Shown here: positions 47,652 through 56,770 of the stretch, in pieces | How positions within the stretch are numbered: the stretch's first letter is position 1 | How the letters are laid out: every line of letters begins with the position of its first letter | Assembly: GCA_001023575.1 (NCBI GenBank) | Contig: CP011489.1 | Span: forward strand, 1,363,001 to 1,427,000 | Source: Actinobacteria bacterium IMCC26256 | GTDB taxonomy: Bacteria; Actinomycetota; Acidimicrobiia; IMCC26256 | Length of the DNA stretch: 64,000 bases | Reading direction: 5' to 3' | Program-made: the position numbers and the translations under genes | The notes under the pieces: generated by a model | What the model saw: the letters and a program-made list of their open reading frames with translations, nothing else | Told to the model about the DNA's origin: nothing | The model's database searches: none

Positions 47652-47854
47652 ACGATTCTCTTCTTTCACTCTGCAATAAATACTTCGATCAAACACGTAT
47701 GCGGTCGGAGCAAGTTTGAGGCAACCCATACTCATGGCCGGAACGCTGTGGATAGCTTCCCCACAATAGGGGTCAAGGGCTTTAGCGCGCCCTACCCAGA
47801 TGCGCCTAGTCTCTATCGGAGCGTTACTCGGTGCTGGAGAGGGGGGTCATCGGG
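47652..47854. other. Divergent intergenic region upstream of the Liv-type importer
   Basis: This gap of about 200 bases should hold the promoters of the crotonase and importer genes. CCCC and GGGG (about 47760-47775) form a short hairpin. I see no well-supported operator. An in-frame GTG at 47831 could add 8 residues to the permease. Confidence 0.4.
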
Positions 47855-49966
47855 GTGAGCACAGCCAATCGGCGCGAATGGTTTGAGAAGGCCCTATCCG
47901 AACGCGCCCTAGGGTTAGTTGCTCTAGTTGTTGTTTTCTTTGCGGTAATCGTCTGGCCCTTCCCCTCCCCGCTCGGAGTAGTCCTCGGCGGCATGCTTGT
48001 CGGTGGCCGCATCGCACTAATTGCTCTCGGGTTTGCGCTCGTCTATCGAGCAAGCCGAGTCGTCAACTTTGCCCAGGGTGACCTCGGGCAGGTTCCAGCG
48101 ACTCTCGTTGTACTGCTAGTGATATCAGCAGGATGGTCCTACTGGCTCGCTCTTGGCATTGGAGTCGTTGCCTCGTTGGCGCTTGGTGGGCTAGTCGAGG
48201 TATTGATCATTCGGAGATTCTTCCGAGCCCCTCGCCTGATACTTACGGTCGCAACTATTGGATTAGCGCAGGTCCTGACCGGCCTAGCTCTCTTCATCCC
48301 GGGCCTGTTCAACACGAGCGCGTTGGCATCAAGAATTGAACCTCCATTTAAAGTCCATATTGATTTTGGCGGCGTGATATTCAACGCAAATGATCTTCTG
48401 ACGATGATCATCGTGCCGATTGCGTTTATATCCCTCGCCTTATTCCTCCAGCGCTCAAGTTCGGGTATAGCGATTCGAGGGGCCGCTGAAAGAGCTGATC
48501 GGGCTTCAATGCTCGGCATTCCAGTCAAGCGCCTCAGCACAATTGTCTGGGCACTTGCATCGCTCCTTGCCTTTCTTGCGATGTTCCTGAGGGCCGGAGC
48601 AGTTGGACTGCCGATCGGCTCAGTACTAGGTCCAACTTTCTTCTTACAGGCACTCGCTGCTGCCGTAATCGGGCGCTTCGAGCGCTTTCCAACTATTGCA
48701 CTCGCAGCGATTGCACTCGGCGTGGTTGATCAAGCAATGACATTTCAACCAGGGAATAGACCTGCCTACAACGATCTGATGCTCTTCGGAGTCGTATTAG
48801 TAGGGCTGCTACTAACTGGTCGCTCAGCGAAGGGCCGCGCTGGGTCCGAGGCATCTACTTGGCAGGCAGCGCGTGAGGTGCGCCCGATTCCGCGCGAACT
48901 CGTAAACCTCCCTGAGATTCGAATCGGAAGATGGGTTCTTGGCCTCGGCCTAATTGGCTTCGTCCTAAGCCTCCCGGTTTGGTTAAGCGTGAGCCGCCTA
49001 GACCTTGCAACAGTCATTGTGATATCTGCCATTGTCGCTCTATCGCTCGTTGTGCTCACAGGGTGGGCAGGACAGGTAAGTCTTGGGCAGATGGCGCTCG
49101 CCGGAATCGGCGCTGCTGTCGGAGGGGCAATGACTGCAGTTCATGGACTCGACTTGCTCCTCGCCCTGCTTGGAGGTGGAGTCGCTGGCGCAATTATCGC
49201 TGTGATCATCGGTTATCCGGCCATTCGCCGAGGTGGACTTACTCTTGCGGTCAGCACACTTGCATTCGCATTGGCGACCTGGTCGTTCGTGCTGAACCAG
49301 GAGTTCCTTGGCGATTGGCTTCCATCAGGTCGGATAGAGACCCCTCAATTCCTCTGGGGAGCAGTCGACATCTCTACAGATACTCGCCTCTTCTACCTCT
49401 GCGTCGGTGTACTAGCTCTTGCTCTACTCGCAGTGCGCGGGATACGCGCGAGCAGAACGGGGCGCGTGCTAATTGCTATTCGAGAGAATGACCGCGCTGT
49501 TCGCTCATATGGCGTCTCTGCAGTCCGCACAACCCTGGCTGGATTCGCCGTCTCTGGTTTTCTCGCAGCAGTCGCTGGTGTGCTTCTCGTTCATCAGCAG
49601 CACGGTCTTGACGTAACCAACTTCGCCCCTTCGGAGAGCATCCAGGCGTTCTCCATGGTTGTCATCGGAGGGCTTGGCTCTATCTCGGGCGCCATTCTCG
49701 GTGCCATCTATGTTCGGGGTGCAGCCTGGCTCTTGCCCGCCGAGTGGCAGTTCCTTGCAACCGGCGCAGGGCTACTTCTCGTTCTTCTAATTCTCCCCGG
49801 AGGACTCGGCGCAGCCCTTGCCGATATTAGAGACGGTGTACTTAGAGCCATTGCTCGCCGCCGCAACATCATTGTCCCAAGCCTGCTTGCCGATAGACGC
49901 GTTGAAGAGTTAGTCCCGATCAATGTTGATGCGAGCGCAATAGAAGGCATTGGGGATTCGGCATGA
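47855..49966 (+). CDS. LivH-LivM fused branched-chain-amino-acid-type ABC permease
   Basis: This protein of about 703 residues joins both HAAT-family permeases. The first half is LivH-like, with ALIALGFALVYRASRVVNFAQGD and the segment AERADRASMLGIPV. The second half, from about residue 350, is LivM-like, with WAGQVSLGQMALAGIGAAVGG, AIRENDRAVRSYGV and IGGLGSISGAILGAIYV. Each half has about eight hydrophobic segments. I chose GTG 47855 because GGAGAGGGGGG lies upstream. Its stop overlaps the next gene's ATG (ATGA). It should form the membrane channel of an importer for branched-chain amino acids, amides or related organic acids. Confidence 0.87.
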   Translation: MSTANRREWFEKALSERALGLVALVVVFFAVIVWPFPSPLGVVLGGMLVGGRIALIALGFALVYRASRVVNFAQGDLGQVPATLVVLLVISAGWSYWLALGIGVVASLALGGLVEVLIIRRFFRAPRLILTVATIGLAQVLTGLALFIPGLFNTSALASRIEPPFKVHIDFGGVIFNANDLLTMIIVPIAFISLALFLQRSSSGIAIRGAAERADRASMLGIPVKRLSTIVWALASLLAFLAMFLRAGAVGLPIGSVLGPTFFLQALAAAVIGRFERFPTIALAAIALGVVDQAMTFQPGNRPAYNDLMLFGVVLVGLLLTGRSAKGRAGSEASTWQAAREVRPIPRELVNLPEIRIGRWVLGLGLIGFVLSLPVWLSVSRLDLATVIVISAIVALSLVVLTGWAGQVSLGQMALAGIGAAVGGAMTAVHGLDLLLALLGGGVAGAIIAVIIGYPAIRRGGLTLAVSTLAFALATWSFVLNQEFLGDWLPSGRIETPQFLWGAVDISTDTRLFYLCVGVLALALLAVRGIRASRTGRVLIAIRENDRAVRSYGVSAVRTTLAGFAVSGFLAAVAGVLLVHQQHGLDVTNFAPSESIQAFSMVVIGGLGSISGAILGAIYVRGAAWLLPAEWQFLATGAGLLLVLLILPGGLGAALADIRDGVLRAIARRRNIIVPSLLADRRVEELVPINVDASAIEGIGDSA

Positions 49967-52932
49967 CAGCAGCACCCATGCCAGCCGAGACAAGCAAGCC
50001 ACTTAACAAAATCCACGGCTTCCTCCTCAGTCTCACAGGTGGAGCACCTGTCTATCCGCTAGTCATCCTGACCGGTTTGCTGGCCGTTGACGAACTCGAT
50101 CGTGCCGCGTTCGGAATTCTCTTGCCAGAGATTCGTGCTGCATTCGGGCTTAACCTGCAAGCGGTTCTAAGTGTCGTTGCACTCGCGTCACTTGTTGCAT
50201 TATTAATTCAGGTTCCGATCGCCTTCTACGCTGACCGACTGCCTCGCACGAAGATCGCAGTGGCAGGTGCAGTTGTCTGGATGTTCTTTACGGGGATGAC
50301 GGGCCTTGCATTTGGAGTCATCATGCTCTCGATTGCGCGCGCCGGGTCAGGCCTAGGAAAGGCGGTTGTAGACCCCACTCACAACTCCCTTCTCTCCGAT
50401 TACTACGACATTCCCGTCAGGCCTCGCGTCTTCTCCTTCCATCGTGCCGGAAGCGTGGTTGGCCTGACTGTTGGGCCTCTAGCCGCCGGACTTCTCGCAT
50501 ATTGGCTTGGCTGGAGAGCACCATTCATTATCTTCATGATCCCGACGCTTATCTTCGTGATTCTCGGGCGTCGTTTACTTGAGCCACTACGCGGAACATG
50601 GGAGCGTCGCGCCGCTGGCGCAGCAGAGGAAGCAATCGACACGGAGGATATTCCTCCATCTTTTGCAGAGTCTTGGCGCATTGTTTGGCAGGTCGGGACG
50701 CTACGCCGAATCTTCTACTCGCTCCCCTTCTTAGCAGTTGCAATCATTGGGCTAGCGACACTCTCATCCCTCCAGTATGCGCAGACATTTGGTCTAGACG
50801 AGCGGGCACGTGGGTTTGTCGCATCAATTGTTGAGCCAGTCCAACTCATAGGGCTCTTTGCAGGCATCCCCATAGCAACTCGATTAATGAAGCGTGACCC
50901 TGGATTGATTCTTAAATTCATAGGGCTCGTCAACGCTGGGCTCGCTCTTTGCTGGGTCGGTTTTGCATTGGCACCCAATGTTTACGTAGCAGTCGGCATC
51001 AGCATGCTCACCGCAGCGCTTGTCTCGTTGATTGGTCCAGGTTTGGCTGCCGCTCTCTCAATAGCGACGCCTCCAAAAGTGCGCTCTTTTGGTTACGCAG
51101 TAGCCGCTCTCTGGATTCTTCCCGGATTAATTGTGCTCCCAGTCATTGGTGGCGTTGCTGATACGTACGGAATCAGAACAGGATTGCTGCTACTAGTGCC
51201 AGTTTTCCTAATTGGATCAGTGCTAATAGCATCAGCAAGCACTCAGGTGGCGGCAGATGTAACACAGGTATGGACCTCTGCAGCGGCGCAGTCTGAAGTG
51301 CTGTATCAACGCCGTCAAGGCCTTGTAAAGATGCTCCTCGTGCGTGGCCTCGATGTTGGCTACGACGGCGTTCAGGTTCTCTTCAAAGTCGATTTTGAGG
51401 TCGACGAAGGAGAGATTGTTGCGCTCCTAGGTACCAACGGATCTGGAAAATCAACACTCCTCAAAGCCATCTCTGGACTCGTTGAGGCGAGCGCTGGGGC
51501 AGTCATCTTCGATGGCCGCGACATGACCTACGCGCCGCCGCATGAGGTGGCAGGGCTCGGAATCACACAGGTTCCGGGGGGCCAAGGCGTATTCCCCACA
51601 CTCACTGTTAAAGAGAACCTGCATCTCGCAGGCTGGCTCCACCGCAAGGATAAAAATCGCGTAAAGGTGGCGACCGAAGAGGTCCTCGAGCTCTTTCCCA
51701 TATTAAGAGAGCGCCTCGAGGAGCCGGCAGGAAATCTCTCCGGAGGACAACAGCAGATGCTCACCCTCGGGATGGCGTTCATCGAGCGACCGCGCCTCCT
51801 GATGATTGATGAGCTATCGCTTGGATTAGCGCCGGTTGTCGTCGGGCAACTGCTACAGATCGTTGAACGCATTCGAGAGGCAGGTACAACAATCATCGTC
51901 GTGGAGCAATCGGTAAACGTTGCTCTAACGATTGCCGAGCGCGCGTATTTTATGGAGAAGGGAGAGATCCGTTTCGAGGGCCCAACCGCTGAGTTACTTG
52001 AACGACCTGACATTCTTCGCTCGGTTTATCTTGAGGGTGCTGCAAGCCGTGGAGCGGAACTTGCTGCGTCACGAACATACGATTCGGAGACGGCTGCTCT
52101 GGTTGAGAGACCGACACGCATCGAGGTGCAGAGCATCTCTAAACGCTTTGGGGGCATTCACGCTCTACGCGACGTCAGCTTCACTGCCGGAGCGGGAGAG
52201 ATTCTCGGATTCATAGGCCCGAACGGCGCTGGTAAGACGACGCTCTTTGACGCGATCTCGGGATTCATTCGCGTTGAGGGTGGACGCGTAATTCTCACCG
52301 GAGAGAATGGTCCTATCGACCTGACAAATGAGAAGGCCGAGCAGAGGGCGCGTCACGGCATCGGCCGATCATTCCAAGACGGACGTCTGTTTCCAGGCCT
52401 TACGGTTAGCGAGACAATCGCAGTGGCTCTTGAGCGCCACGTAGCTGTGCGTGATCCAATCGCCGCAGCCCTCCACCTACCAGCAGTCTCAGACTCGGAG
52501 TCTCAGGTGCGCCTTCGTGTCGACGAGTTGATTGACCTAATGGGGCTCGGGGCTTTTAGGGACAAGTTCTGCAGAGAACTCTCTACTGGAAGCCGCCGAA
52601 TTGTCGACATGGCCTGCCTACTCGCCCACCACCCCACCGCACTCCTCCTAGACGAGCCCTCGAGCGGCATTGCGCAGCGAGAGGCCGAGGCCCTAGGTCC
52701 CCTGCTATTAAAGATCAGGGACACTCTTGGGGCCACGATCCTCCTGATCGAGCATGACCTACCTCTTTTAACCTCGGTTGCTGACCGGCTCGTAGCAATG
52801 CACCTAGGGGAGATTGTCACCGTGGGGCTACCGGCCGACGTGGTTAGCCATCCTGTGGTCGTTGAGAGTTATCTCGGGACCTCTGAGGCAGCGATCGCTA
52901 GATCTGGCTCAGGGAATACACCAACTTCATAG
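49963..52932 (+). CDS. MFS transporter fused to LivF-like and LivG-like ABC ATPases
   Basis: This 989-residue protein has three modules. Residues about 20-430 are a twelve-segment MFS transporter with DELDRAAFGILLPEIRAAF in helix 1 and FYADRLPRTK as motif A. Residues about 456-690 are a LivF-like ATPase: Walker A GTNGSGKST (about 490), LSGGQQQML (about 591), Walker B LLMIDE. Residues about 717-975 are a LivG-like ATPase: Walker A GPNGAGKTT (about 752), GRSFQD, a variant signature LSTGSRR (about 872), Walker B LLLDEPSSG and IEHDL. ATGA overlap with the permease fusion shows coupled expression. The ATPases should power the LivHM permease; what the MFS part adds is unknown. The frame is uninterrupted, so this is not an obvious assembly join. 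Confidence 0.88.
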   Translation: MTAAPMPAETSKPLNKIHGFLLSLTGGAPVYPLVILTGLLAVDELDRAAFGILLPEIRAAFGLNLQAVLSVVALASLVALLIQVPIAFYADRLPRTKIAVAGAVVWMFFTGMTGLAFGVIMLSIARAGSGLGKAVVDPTHNSLLSDYYDIPVRPRVFSFHRAGSVVGLTVGPLAAGLLAYWLGWRAPFIIFMIPTLIFVILGRRLLEPLRGTWERRAAGAAEEAIDTEDIPPSFAESWRIVWQVGTLRRIFYSLPFLAVAIIGLATLSSLQYAQTFGLDERARGFVASIVEPVQLIGLFAGIPIATRLMKRDPGLILKFIGLVNAGLALCWVGFALAPNVYVAVGISMLTAALVSLIGPGLAAALSIATPPKVRSFGYAVAALWILPGLIVLPVIGGVADTYGIRTGLLLLVPVFLIGSVLIASASTQVAADVTQVWTSAAAQSEVLYQRRQGLVKMLLVRGLDVGYDGVQVLFKVDFEVDEGEIVALLGTNGSGKSTLLKAISGLVEASAGAVIFDGRDMTYAPPHEVAGLGITQVPGGQGVFPTLTVKENLHLAGWLHRKDKNRVKVATEEVLELFPILRERLEEPAGNLSGGQQQMLTLGMAFIERPRLLMIDELSLGLAPVVVGQLLQIVERIREAGTTIIVVEQSVNVALTIAERAYFMEKGEIRFEGPTAELLERPDILRSVYLEGAASRGAELAASRTYDSETAALVERPTRIEVQSISKRFGGIHALRDVSFTAGAGEILGFIGPNGAGKTTLFDAISGFIRVEGGRVILTGENGPIDLTNEKAEQRARHGIGRSFQDGRLFPGLTVSETIAVALERHVAVRDPIAAALHLPAVSDSESQVRLRVDELIDLMGLGAFRDKFCRELSTGSRRIVDMACLLAHHPTALLLDEPSSGIAQREAEALGPLLLKIRDTLGATILLIEHDLPLLTSVADRLVAMHLGEIVTVGLPADVVSHPVVVESYLGTSEAAIARSGSGNTPTS

Positions 52933-52955
52933 TTTGAGAGAGTAAACCTCCCAGT

Positions 52956-53000
52956 ATTCTCGCCCTCAAAGTAAAAGTCTGATACACCGAAGGCGAGAAT
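52956..53000. promoter_or_regulatory. Long-range inverted repeat upstream of the binding-protein gene
   Basis: ATTCTCGCC (52956-52964) and GGCGAGAAT (52992-53000) are perfect 9-base complements separated by 27 bases, in the 143-base gap after the MFS-ABC gene. In RNA they could form a stem controlling read-through into, or stability of, the binding-protein message. As DNA they could bind a regulator twice. Confidence 0.4.
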
Positions 53001-53075
53001 TAGGTACGCTCCAAATTGCTCCAACGAATACTCAGTTGAGAATTTAAATGTTTGCTAACCAATCCGGGGGGAACC

Positions 53076-54791
53076 ATGGAAGCAACGCCAAGCCAGCCTA
53101 AGAAGAGCGGTCTTCGTCGCTATGCACCTTTTATTGCGGCTGTCGTAGTAATTGCGCTAGCCGTATTTGTGGTCGGGAAAAATAATTCAAGCGACCCAAA
53201 ACCGAGCCAGCCGGCAGATCAAGGCGCAGCTTCTAACGAAGACTTGATAAAAGCAGGGCCAATGACCCCAGATAAGGCCGAACTGCTCGGCAAGACAGTC
53301 GACTTCGGAGCGAAGTGTGATACCTCAACGGGCAATGTCAAGATGCCCACAGAGTACGCGCCTATGTGCGTTGAGGCATTTACCGGCGACAATGGCGGGG
53401 CCACGTCACCTGGTGTTACAGGCGAGACAATCAAGGTAGTCGCCTACATCGGCGACCCGGCGAAAGACGCCCTGCAGGCAGCCCTCGTCAAAGGTGCTGG
53501 ATCCGACGTTGACATCAGCTTGACGAAGCAGACGTATAACGGCTGGGTAGAGATGTTCGAGAAGTATGCAGAGATGAGCGGACGCAAGGTATCTCTTGAT
53601 TTCTATATTGGAACAGGCGCTCCGAGCGATCCAGTTGCAGCCAAGGCAGACGCAAAAGCCATCATCGATAAGAAGCCATTTGCTGTATTCGGTGGACCAA
53701 ACCAGACCGATGCATTTGCAGATGAGTTAACCGCAGCAAAGATTGTCTGCCTCGGTTGCGCAACTGCAGCCGGCATCAAGTTCACCGCAGAGCGCTCTCC
53801 ATACCTCTGGACTACCGGGCCAATGCCCGAGCAAGCGAGCCTCCTAACGGCGCAGATGGTTGGAAGTCTCCTCAACGGGAAGAAGGCGAAGTGGGCTGGC
53901 GATGCTGCCACACGCTCTAAAACACGCGTATTCGGCGCTGTGCACTACGACACTCCAGCAGGGCAGCAACGCTCGGCATGGGCAACGTTTAGATCTGAGA
54001 TGAAGAAGAACGGCGTGAAGATCGCCTCAGACATTCAGTACTACTTAGACCTTCCGCGTGCGCAAGAGAATGCACGCACAACGATTGCGAAGCTCAAAGC
54101 AGCCAAGGTCACATCCGTAATTTTCTATGGTGACCCGCTTACTCCTCTTTATTTAACTAAGGAAGCAACCGCTCAGGACTACCACCCAGAGTGGATTCTT
54201 GGTCCGACTGTCTACGCAGATACGGCAGTATTTGGTCGCATCTATGACCAAGAACAATGGAAGCACGCATTCGGTATCTCACTTATTCCAGCCCGCACAA
54301 CTAAAGAGATCGCCGGTTGGTACGCGCTATGGGTATGGCAGTTTGGAACTCCCCCACCTAGCAACAATGTTGCTGTGATCTCTGGGCCTCCAGGAATGTT
54401 CTTTGCAGGTGTAAACCTTGCCGGGCCAAATCTCACGCCATTAACATTTAGAGATGGATTGTTTAGAGCAGGAGTGCAGGGAGGCAATTCGCTAGCGCCG
54501 ACCAACTCTCGAGGACGCCACGGCATTTGGAGTGGCACTGGCGAGGACCTCGGTGGGTCGGACGATGTAACCCTCGTATGGTGGAACTCAACCGCCAAGG
54601 GCGAGGACGAGATCGCGAACGCTGGTACTGGACTCTACGAATATGTAACAGGCGGCAAGCGCTACCTTCCTGGAACATGGCCGACGGTTGATCCGGGATT
54701 ATTTGATTCCAGTAAGTCTGTAACTATCTACACGACGATTCCGGCAGACCTACAGCCGCCGAGTTACCCATCACCCGCTGCCAAGAAATAG
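53076..54791 (+). CDS. LivK-like ABC substrate-binding protein with N-terminal membrane anchor
   Basis: This 571-residue protein belongs to the periplasmic-binding-protein type I family used by branched-chain amino acid importers. Supporting segments are GVTGETIKVVAYIGDP near residue 115, AVFGGPNQTDAFADELTAA and VTSVIFYGDPLTPLYL. ATG 53076 has GGGGGG five bases upstream. The N-terminus has KKSGLRRYAPFIAAVVVIAL, a positively charged then hydrophobic stretch with no lipobox Cys, so it is probably tethered by an uncleaved helix rather than a lipid. It is long for LivK (about 370-420). It completes the importer encoded upstream. Confidence 0.87.
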   Translation: MEATPSQPKKSGLRRYAPFIAAVVVIALAVFVVGKNNSSDPKPSQPADQGAASNEDLIKAGPMTPDKAELLGKTVDFGAKCDTSTGNVKMPTEYAPMCVEAFTGDNGGATSPGVTGETIKVVAYIGDPAKDALQAALVKGAGSDVDISLTKQTYNGWVEMFEKYAEMSGRKVSLDFYIGTGAPSDPVAAKADAKAIIDKKPFAVFGGPNQTDAFADELTAAKIVCLGCATAAGIKFTAERSPYLWTTGPMPEQASLLTAQMVGSLLNGKKAKWAGDAATRSKTRVFGAVHYDTPAGQQRSAWATFRSEMKKNGVKIASDIQYYLDLPRAQENARTTIAKLKAAKVTSVIFYGDPLTPLYLTKEATAQDYHPEWILGPTVYADTAVFGRIYDQEQWKHAFGISLIPARTTKEIAGWYALWVWQFGTPPPSNNVAVISGPPGMFFAGVNLAGPNLTPLTFRDGLFRAGVQGGNSLAPTNSRGRHGIWSGTGEDLGGSDDVTLVWWNSTAKGEDEIANAGTGLYEYVTGGKRYLPGTWPTVDPGLFDSSKSVTIYTTIPADLQPPSYPSPAAKK

Positions 54792-54820: not shown

Positions 54821-55474
54821 TTAGGAGCCCGGGCTCACGGCAACCCAGCCTGAGTCCGGCTCCCATTGCCTGATTACTCGAGCAGGGTTCCCTACCGCAA
54901 CGCATCTATCTGGAATTACACCGGTAACGACTGAACCGGCACCGATCACAACGTGCTCTCCAATGTGCGCACCTGGAAGAACAATTGTCCCGTGGCCGAG
55001 CCATGAGCCTGCTCCGATCGATACCGCTCGCGGTGCGGCAAATTGATGACCAATAGCCGCATCGAGACTCTCATAACCATGATTCGCATCAGTGATGTAG
55101 ACGTTGTGCCCTGTGAAAACATTCTCACCAATCGTGATTGATTCATGCGCCACGATGCCACTGCCGCGCCCAATCAAAACCCCATCTTCGATTCGCAGAA
55201 TTACATCATGGGCAAGCACTTGATCTGGTGCAACGCCACAGGAGATCGAGCAATGGGGCCCAATGATGACGCGATCACCGAGATGCATATATTTCTCACC
55301 GTAGAGGGCAATGAGTGGAAAGAGAATCGCACTTGCTTCACCGAAATGACCAAAACGTGCCGCTCTGCGACTCGCAGTCCCGATTGTCCCGAGGCGGCAG
55401 ATGCGCTCCCAGAGTGAGCCAATTACATCGCTGGCACGTCTTGAGGGCTTGTGTGGGTATCTCGCATCGGGCAT
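54821..55474 (-). CDS. Hexapeptide-repeat (left-handed beta-helix) acyltransferase
   Basis: This 217-residue protein carries imperfect hexapeptide repeats from about residue 70, including HLGDRVIIGPHCSISCG, IGENVFTGHNVYITDANHG and VIGAGSVVTGVIPDRCVAVG. The last block is the usual end of O-acetyltransferases such as the maltose/galactoside or wzx-associated types. The frame is open to 55948, but that upstream part runs over the divergent cytochrome gene, so I chose ATG 55474, with TACGAT eight bases before it. The acceptor (sugar, polysaccharide or antibiotic) is unknown. A second LbH protein lies at 58068. Confidence 0.8.
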   Translation of the reverse strand: MPDARYPHKPSRRASDVIGSLWERICRLGTIGTASRRAARFGHFGEASAILFPLIALYGEKYMHLGDRVIIGPHCSISCGVAPDQVLAHDVILRIEDGVLIGRGSGIVAHESITIGENVFTGHNVYITDANHGYESLDAAIGHQFAAPRAVSIGAGSWLGHGTIVLPGAHIGEHVVIGAGSVVTGVIPDRCVAVGNPARVIRQWEPDSGWVAVSPGS

Positions 55475-55526
55475 GGCGAAGCATCGTAGTGGGGGGTCCT
55501 TGCAGTTCGCCTCTGCAGCGGCCACG

Positions 55527-55877
55527 ATGCACCCTGTGACTCTCTCCAAAACCCCATATCTGAGACCCCTAACTTCCCTAGCAATCTTGGCTGTGAGTCT
55601 TGGGGTCGTCCTAAGCGCCTGCAGTAGCGGCGGAGGCGAGACTCCCTCTGCAAGTGGCTCTGTCCTATACGCAGCTAACTGTGCACGCTGCCACGGGTCC
55701 CAGGGTGAGGGCATAATTGGCCCATCGCTCGCAGGCATTACCCAGACCTTCCCTGAAGAAGATGGAGAGATCGCCTTTGTCTCGAACGGTGGAGGAGGAA
55801 TGCCGAGGTTCTCTGCTTCTCTCTCTGAGGCTGACATTAAGGCCATCGTTGAGTACACGCGCTCAACCTTTAAATAG
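55527..55877 (+). CDS. c-type cytochrome lipoprotein
   Basis: This 116-residue protein has a lipoprotein signal: hydrophobic residues about 17-30 then the lipobox VLSAC (Cys32). The haem motif CARCH is at about 52-56, followed by GEGIIGPSLAGI, typical of small class I cytochromes c, with a candidate Met ligand in GGGGMPRF. It should be an exported, membrane-anchored electron carrier. The frame is open to 55401, but that upstream part overlaps the divergent acyltransferase gene and ATG 55527 starts the signal peptide, so I chose it. The next gene begins 35 bases on. Confidence 0.85.
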   Translation: MHPVTLSKTPYLRPLTSLAILAVSLGVVLSACSSGGGETPSASGSVLYAANCARCHGSQGEGIIGPSLAGITQTFPEEDGEIAFVSNGGGGMPRFSASLSEADIKAIVEYTRSTFK

Positions 55878-55912
55878 CTATCTATATAGATTCGGGAAGA
55901 ACAGGAGCCTTG

Positions 55913-56770
55913 ATGACAGAGAGAGACAGTCACCAATCTGCAGACCAAAAAGCGAGCAGTGAAGAATCTCCGCGCGGTCTAGCAGCGCTTCGAGCTTGGC
56001 GGCTCGGGATGCCCCGGTTAGGGCTGCTTCAGCCGAGTTCCGAGCCCTCCCCGCGCACCGATATTGGGGTTGTCTCCCCCAGATCACAGCCCCCCGCCAA
56101 ACCCCAGCCGCGAGATTCTCAACGCGTACGCGTCTACCGAGCTGAGACGCCCCTGAAGGGCCGAGAGCTCAAGACAATCGAGCAGTGCGAGGATTTCTGC
56201 GAAAGCGTCGTAGGGACGCTCTGGTGGCTCAACAGGTTCCCTGAACTCGGCCTTGAGAGGATCCCGCACCTCCGAGATGGGCGCGGGGCACGTCAGGCCT
56301 TTTACCGCGAGGATCCAGGGCACCCCACGATTACTCTCCCCCGCCGCTATCGGACAGTAAACGTCATCCTCCATGAGCTCGCTCACTGGACAATGCATGC
56401 GGATCACGACCTACCAAACCACGGATATACCTTCACGCGAGTATTCATGGATCTCACTGCCGAGTTCTGCGGCCCGGCGGCGCGCGAATTGCTTGCCGCC
56501 GCGTATGCCGAGCACAAGGTGCACATCGGGGCTGAAGCTGTACTCGGGCCGGACGGTATCTACCGTTATGGAAACGATGAACGTATACGCCTAGGGCGCG
56601 ACAGATTGCTTGTCATTGACCTTATCGAGTCTGAGAGTCCTGTCTCCGGAGTAATAGTTCGCGCGACGAAGAAGCAGATCACACTTCTTCTACAGGACAA
56701 GCAGTTGGATGATGAGCGACATCTCTCGATCCCGCTCGGGTCTATATGGAGAGTTAGAGGCGCTCAATAA
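55913..56770 (+). CDS. TIGR04338-like putative metallohydrolase with C-terminal extension
   Basis: This 285-residue protein has a zinc-peptidase-like motif HELAHWTMH (about 154-162), with HGYTFTRVFMD downstream supplying a third ligand. The segment RDSQRVRVYRAE before it is the start signature of the actinobacterial TIGR04338 family. The family core is about 170 residues; here an N-terminal Pro/Ser-rich tail of about 65 residues and a C-terminal domain (about 200-285) are added. AGGAG five bases before ATG 55913 defines the start. There is no signal peptide. The end overlaps the convergent thiolase by 17 bases. Function is unknown. Confidence 0.78.
   Translation: MTERDSHQSADQKASSEESPRGLAALRAWRLGMPRLGLLQPSSEPSPRTDIGVVSPRSQPPAKPQPRDSQRVRVYRAETPLKGRELKTIEQCEDFCESVVGTLWWLNRFPELGLERIPHLRDGRGARQAFYREDPGHPTITLPRRYRTVNVILHELAHWTMHADHDLPNHGYTFTRVFMDLTAEFCGPAARELLAAAYAEHKVHIGAEAVLGPDGIYRYGNDERIRLGRDRLLVIDLIESESPVSGVIVRATKKQITLLLQDKQLDDERHLSIPLGSIWRVRGAQ

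Follow-up and report, generated by a model that had tools for sequence, protein, structure and literature searches.

Why should a complete carrier of the major facilitator superfamily (MFS) be joined in one polypeptide to both ATPases of an ABC importer? Primary (ABC) and secondary (MFS) transporters are usually treated as separate machines. The locus that raises this question resides in Actinobacteria bacterium IMCC26256, whose genome is assembled as a single contig of 2,461,858 bases (99.93% complete). It occupies positions 47855-54791 of the 64,000-nucleotide stretch that was analysed (contig CP011489.1, positions 1,363,001 to 1,427,000 of the forward strand, hereafter the window) and comprises three genes in the order LivH-LivM, MFS-LivF-LivG and substrate-binding protein (SBP). 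Judged from the sequences, the MFS-ABC fusion is real, old and conserved. We propose, with a probability of roughly 0.45, that the locus encodes a conserved importer of the branched-chain amino acid (HAAT) type in which a Spinster-like MFS domain would offer the same ligand a second route that does not use ATP, and would share the SBP with the ABC part. This reading is favoured because 56 of 57 core relatives retain five charged transport residues of Spinster carriers, because SBP distances track those of the MFS domain best, and because one genus, g16, keeps the MFS together with an SBP although the ABC part is gone. The features of the locus are as follows.

47855..49966, plus strand: LivH-LivM permease fusion (BPD_transp_2 twice; UrtB/UrtC and LivH/LivM models)
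49963..51243, plus strand: MFS domain, residues 1-427, with twelve transmembrane (TM) helices, Spinster-like (MFS_1, PDB profile, AlphaFold2)
50809..50811, plus strand: codon of Arg283 in the extracellular TM7-TM8 loop of the MFS domain, a marker of fused MFS (conservation counts)
51247..51315, plus strand: ordered junction helix, residues 429-451, leading from TM12 of the MFS domain to LivF (AlphaFold2, conservation)
51328..52029, plus strand: LivF-type ATPase, residues 456-689 (UrtE/LivF-type models; conserved motifs GTNGSGKST, LSGGQ and IDELS)
52030..52098, plus strand: flexible LivF-LivG linker, residues 690-712 (low model confidence)
52111..52902, plus strand: LivG-type ATPase, residues 717-980 (UrtD/LivG-type models; GPNGAGKT, LSTGS, LDEPS and EHD)
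53076..54791, plus strand: binding protein with an N-terminal membrane anchor and a type I periplasmic fold (Pfam matches of homologues, model)

The fused gene is one open frame of 989 residues (49963-52932). In it, Pfam detects MFS_1 (E 2.7e-32, residues 42-382) as well as two stretches of ABC_tran, and NCBIfam assigns residues 460-678 to a UrtE/LivF-type and residues 720-973 to a UrtD/LivG-type ATPase. An initial annotation, made from the letters of the window, had described this three-part frame, its ATGA coupling to a LivH-LivM fusion and a long binding protein that has a helix at its N-terminus but lacks a lipobox. Frames, Pfam and NCBIfam agree on the first, the overlap lies at 49963-49966, and the description of the binding protein holds for the window protein. 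The same annotation had allowed for a frameshift or assembly join at about position 51300 and for MFS and ABC parts that are separate in all other genomes. Both are excluded by a search for the same architecture elsewhere, which returned MFS-LivF-LivG as one frame in 79 loci with distinct LivF sequences (genomes and named contigs), nearly all of them without internal stops; the former is also excluded by codon-position G+C, which is even across the MFS/LivF junction. The LivH-LivM frame opens at 47831 and contains two PF02653 stretches. A G-rich stretch immediately precedes each of the probable translation starts, GTG 47855 for LivH-LivM and ATG 53076 for the SBP.

A frameshift or assembly artefact was thus rejected, given the single-contig genome, the steady composition at the junction and a fused frame that is open in dozens of independent genomes. 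Two proteins could also arise from the frame by internal initiation near residue 457, where an in-frame ATG is present and GTG codons lie nearby. The consensus at this position is, however, Leu and not Met, and a start at Met457 was judged unlikely because the residue is not conserved. An ordered and conserved junction helix argues against an artefact as well as against an internal start, and we regard either explanation as scarcely credible.

This helix (residues 429-451) has block values of the predicted local distance difference test (pLDDT) of 87-92 in the AlphaFold2 model, and across 74 fused relatives of both types described below D432 and G453 are invariant and R450 is kept in at least 90%. 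Direct joining of the MFS domain to LivF by such an element speaks for a different role of the domain, namely that of a scaffold or regulatory membrane domain which moves no substrate itself and either holds LivF-LivG next to LivH-LivM or gates the pump in response to substrate or pH. We consider this role rather unlikely for reasons given with the results below. The LivF-LivG linker, with pLDDT below 50 at residues 690-701 and 705-712, is flexible. Walker A, signature and Walker B motifs are intact in both ATPases; the TIGR03410 model is matched above its cut-off (305 bits versus 286) and TIGR03411 slightly below (293 versus 304). In Foldseek, DppD and other tandem-ATPase subunits matched the LivF-LivG pair. 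The initial annotation had pointed to the LivG signature LSTGS in place of LSGGQ and to possibly unequal ATPase sites. The motif is real, and LSTG occurs in nearly all LivG proteins of the family, MFS-less relatives included. The remark on unequal sites therefore holds with or without an MFS domain and is uninformative on the fusion, and a link between LSTGS and the MFS domain was rejected.

What kind of carrier has been attached? In the AlphaFold2 model of the 989-residue protein (mean pLDDT 89.9, predicted TM-score 0.75) the domain forms twelve helices, mostly with pLDDT above 90. Its nearest relatives, which the initial annotation had recommended to seek, are Spinster-like: among solved structures bacterial Spns (6e8j/6e9c) gave the best PDB profile match (109 bits) and Spns1 the second (83 bits). 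The MFS tree sets nine stand-alone Spinster-like carriers apart from the fused domains, which fall into two groups, type A and type B. Proton-coupled alternating access of HnSpns from Hyphomonas neptunium involves the charged residues Asp41, Asp87, Arg91, Arg122 and Asp142 (PMC9440201). When HnSpns residues are mapped through the alignment and read with the roles reported in that study, these five correspond to D46, D91, R95, R126 and D146 of the window protein, and all five equivalents are kept in 56 of the 57 type A proteins that constitute the core set. Such conservation of five residues of the charge network speaks against a domain that only anchors or regulates. The equivalent of HnSpns Arg42, R47 in the window, is kept in 49 of 57. 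All type B proteins (100%) and 98% of those of type A have Arg283 in the outer TM7-TM8 loop, whereas none of the nine stand-alone MFS has it; the residue is also kept in the orphan MFS beside an SBP that is described below. Several Spinster proteins are exporters of lysolipids or drugs (PMC13192786), and kinship with them favours another possibility: the domain could be an exporter or exchanger held 1:1 with the importer, expelling a metabolite or excess substrate or swapping an internal product for external substrate. MsSpns has been proposed to work bidirectionally, so that family membership does not fix direction, and we regard an export or exchange function as improbable.

Which parts of the system belong together functionally was approached by partial correlations of pairwise protein distances in 35 core loci. 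The controls recover the expected partners (LivH-LivM 0.54, LivM-LivG 0.48, LivF-LivG 0.33). The strongest partner of the SBP is the MFS domain (0.53, half-sample range 0.37-0.63), with 0.23 for LivH and about zero for LivM. With Kimura distances the SBP-MFS value is 0.47, and none of 2000 permutations was as high; the rank-based value, 0.32, is still the highest for the SBP. The rates of LivH and LivM are similar to that of the MFS domain, so that evolutionary rate alone does not explain the result. Despite the fusion, MFS distances follow those of LivF much less closely (0.24) than those of the SBP, which speaks against a scaffold for the ATPases. Likewise, co-evolution with an external SBP, or persistence beside one, would be surprising for an exporter.

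In genus g16, carrier and SBP are linked without ABC parts; the window system has such parts. The genus carries an orphan MFS that is nested in type A and 83-85% identical among three species. In genome G033 (L178 1-3409, contig G033:C22) a divergent pilT gene is followed by the orphan MFS and then by a type-A-like SBP, with no ABC genes in 15.9 kb. In G018 the end of the MFS gene is followed by the SBP at a contig end, and in G028 the same MFS start stands next to the same pilT neighbour; neither contig holds the whole locus. The orphan-MFS loci of the genus also include L171 and L192. The ABC systems found in g16 genomes show lower similarity and come with ATPases of their own. Persistence of the carrier with an SBP and without an ABC part argues against an anchoring role.

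Of 268 genomes of the class that are of good quality, 50 were found to carry the type-A MFS, and hosts are, by name, nearly all Acidimicrobiia or related actinobacterial metagenome-assembled genomes (MAGs), plus Aquihabitans and Microthrix. Type B, in which MFS-LivF lies beside LivH-LivM-LivG, occurs in other actinobacteria including Haloechinothrix and Embleya. In one genome all five domains, LivH-LivM-MFS-LivF-LivG, form a single open frame of 1,729 residues (L120 3871-9057). Relatives on plasmids comprise one type-B fusion (Embleya) and otherwise MFS-less LivF/LivG pairs. In a LivF+LivG tree with 107 ingroup rows, MFS-less systems, built either as one chain of LivH-LivM-LivF-LivG or as LivHM plus LivF-LivG, nest inside type A at several places, with strong support for L126 and L128-L130. 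The MFS domain has thus been lost repeatedly while the ABC importer stayed, and it is therefore not essential to the pump. The label for MFS presence needs 12 changes on this tree, slightly too many, as three rows whose MFS is split or divergent were counted among the MFS-less ones. MFS-less single-chain relatives also show that no anchor is needed. Both types share D432, R450 and G453 at the junction as well as the site of attachment, so the fusion likely arose once; two further stand-alone carriers (L195 and L196) branch near the base of the MFS tree, in view of which independent fusions may have occurred.

Several individual loci deserve mention. MFS-less single chains of about 1,220-1,640 residues (stop to stop) are encoded in L122, L126-L131, L164-L166 and L168. 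In a Chloroflexi MAG (CF_96; L114 3-4167) LivH-LivM-LivF form one frame with a separate LivG, and this system groups with the actinobacterial family. In L117-L119 a highly divergent type-B MFS, which scores about 50 bits against the type-B profile, is still joined to LivF. One type-A fusion (L197 4765-7818, minus strand) is split into several frames in a single MAG, through decay or sequencing errors. The titles of some MAGs do not match their content (L096, L101, L102, L119, titled Bifidobacterium breve, and L076, titled Thermoanaerobacterales); they carry copies of the acidimicrobial system, those in L101 and L102 at 94-95% identity.

The SBP of the window has no Pfam match of its own; Peripla_BP_6 is found in 27 of 55 homologues, and lipobox-like sequences occur in the SBPs of some relatives (e.g., L028, L054 and L060). 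A search with its sequence profile found no relative in the PDB. Its model (pLDDT 88.7) most closely resembles organic-acid and branched-chain amino acid binding proteins at about 13% identity, and the fold matches include binders of aromatic acids, fatty acids and amino acids. Naming a ligand from these folds was rejected, since about 13% identity is too loose. The surroundings in the window encode CoA ligases, an enoyl-CoA hydratase, thiolases, amidohydrolases and an esterase. Together, neighbours and SBP fold weakly suggest an organic acid as substrate. CoA ligase, enoyl-CoA hydratase, a TetR regulator and a hexapeptide transferase recur as neighbours in some loci, none of them universally. 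The hexapeptide transferase adjoins the importer in 13 loci; in the window its gene (54821-55948, minus strand) overlaps that of a cytochrome-c-like lipoprotein with CARCH (55401-55877, plus strand), and its TTG start is probably placed too far upstream. At 55910-56770 (plus strand) follows a protein with a metalloprotease-like HELAHWTMH motif and no Pfam match.

A number of observations weigh against a second transport route, the support for which is comparative. The distance correlations come from 35 related loci and are indirect, and the orphan MFS with its SBP occurs in one genus only, in fragmented MAGs. The existence of MFS-less relatives (LivH-LivM-LivF-LivG with a binding protein) means that the ABC part needs no MFS domain. 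Furthermore, Glu129 in TM4, the intracellular protonation master switch of HnSpns (PMC9440201), corresponds to Lys133 in the window; the position is occupied by Lys, Arg or Gln in 49 of the 57 core members and by Glu in two. Proton coupling may be altered or lost through this replacement. Substitution of the switch in most members would suit a scaffold or regulator, and exchange for Lys or Arg could convert a proton-coupled carrier into an anion exchanger, in favour of the exchange function. Taken together with the conserved charges, the residue pattern argues for a domain that would still undergo alternating access, with altered ion coupling. In the type-B loci L106-L111 and L113, the TM1 Asp, the motif-A Asp and the TM4 Arg have been lost, yet the domain stays fused, and the MFS of L120 likewise lacks these residues. 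Here it is probably no longer a proton-driven carrier. Retention of the domain after such loss speaks for scaffolding or regulation, as do fusions of MFS domains to sensor kinases, a recognised family (TC 2.A.1.34; table in PMC3924187), and for the decayed type-B branch such a role may be true. Finally, there is no known case of an MFS carrier served by an SBP. Those secondary carriers that are known to depend on SBPs are believed to be elevators, and why no other type is known to do so was raised as a question in 2025 (PMC12344293).

On balance, of the three roles that the initial annotation had offered for the MFS domain, a second route for the same substrate is favoured by the comparative data, a scaffold remains the main rival, and an exporter or exchanger fits less well. 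A second route could operate as follows. The membrane-anchored SBP would capture an organic acid and hand it (perhaps a carboxylate of aromatic or aliphatic type, a guess prompted by the CoA ligase and thiolase genes around the locus) either to LivH-LivM for ATP-driven import or to the fused MFS domain, driven by a proton or substrate gradient. The fusion would keep one carrier per ATPase pair. With abundant substrate the cell could rely on inexpensive uptake through the MFS domain, and at low supply on the ATP-driven route. The MFS branch would be an accessory, lost several times and decayed in one sub-branch. More specifically, and more tentatively, one polypeptide may unite a primary and a secondary transporter around one SBP, with the MFS domain acting as an SBP-fed rocker-switch carrier and the ABC part as the alternative, ATP-dependent route.

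A widespread and old ABC-MFS fusion, with signs that both parts use one SBP, calls the textbook division of transporters into two classes into question and offers a natural system for testing whether an MFS carrier accepts substrate from an SBP. Should this be shown, the fusion would be a transporter of a new kind: an MFS would for the first time be fed by an SBP, and a fused complex would for the first time be powered by either ATP or a gradient. The orphan MFS-SBP pair would then be a direct counter-example to the pattern that only elevator-type secondary carriers are known or proposed to use SBPs. In addition, the locus is a candidate organic-acid uptake system in Acidimicrobiia, a largely uncultured group. 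While the parts belong to known families, the joining of an MFS carrier to HAAT ATPases is a new form of HAAT importer; no description of a whole MFS fused to HAAT ATPases was found in the literature searched, TCDB and InterPro architecture tables lying outside that search.

Compared with the HAAT (Liv/Urt) importers (TC 3.A.1.4), such as LivJKHMGF of E. coli or the urea transporter UrtABCDE, the system has the same LivH- and LivM-type permeases, the same LivF/UrtE and LivG/UrtD ATPases and a type I SBP. It differs in that the permeases are fused to each other, as are the ATPases, and in that a whole MFS carrier sits at the N-terminus of LivF; moreover, the LivG signature is LSTG(S/T) and the SBP is mostly held by a membrane helix. 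DppD/OppD-type subunits also carry two ABC ATPases per chain, and the LivF-LivG model reaches a TM-score of 0.75, normalised by target, against DppD of M. tuberculosis. They belong to a peptide importer family and, unlike the protein described here, have no MFS domain. With Spinster carriers (HnSpns 6e8j/6e9c, human SPNS1 and SPNS2) the MFS domain shares the twelve helices, the TM1 Asp, the Asp and Arg of motif A and the Arg and Asp of TM4, whereas fusion to two ABC ATPases, mainly Lys, Arg or Gln in place of Glu129 and the outer-loop Arg283 set it apart. The proposed working mode, finally, resembles that of TAXI-GltS, TRAP and tripartite tricarboxylate transporters, where an SBP is encoded next to or fused to a secondary carrier. 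An elevator mechanism has been shown for TRAP and is inferred for the other two, and there is no MFS protein and no fusion to ABC ATPases among them (PMC12344293).

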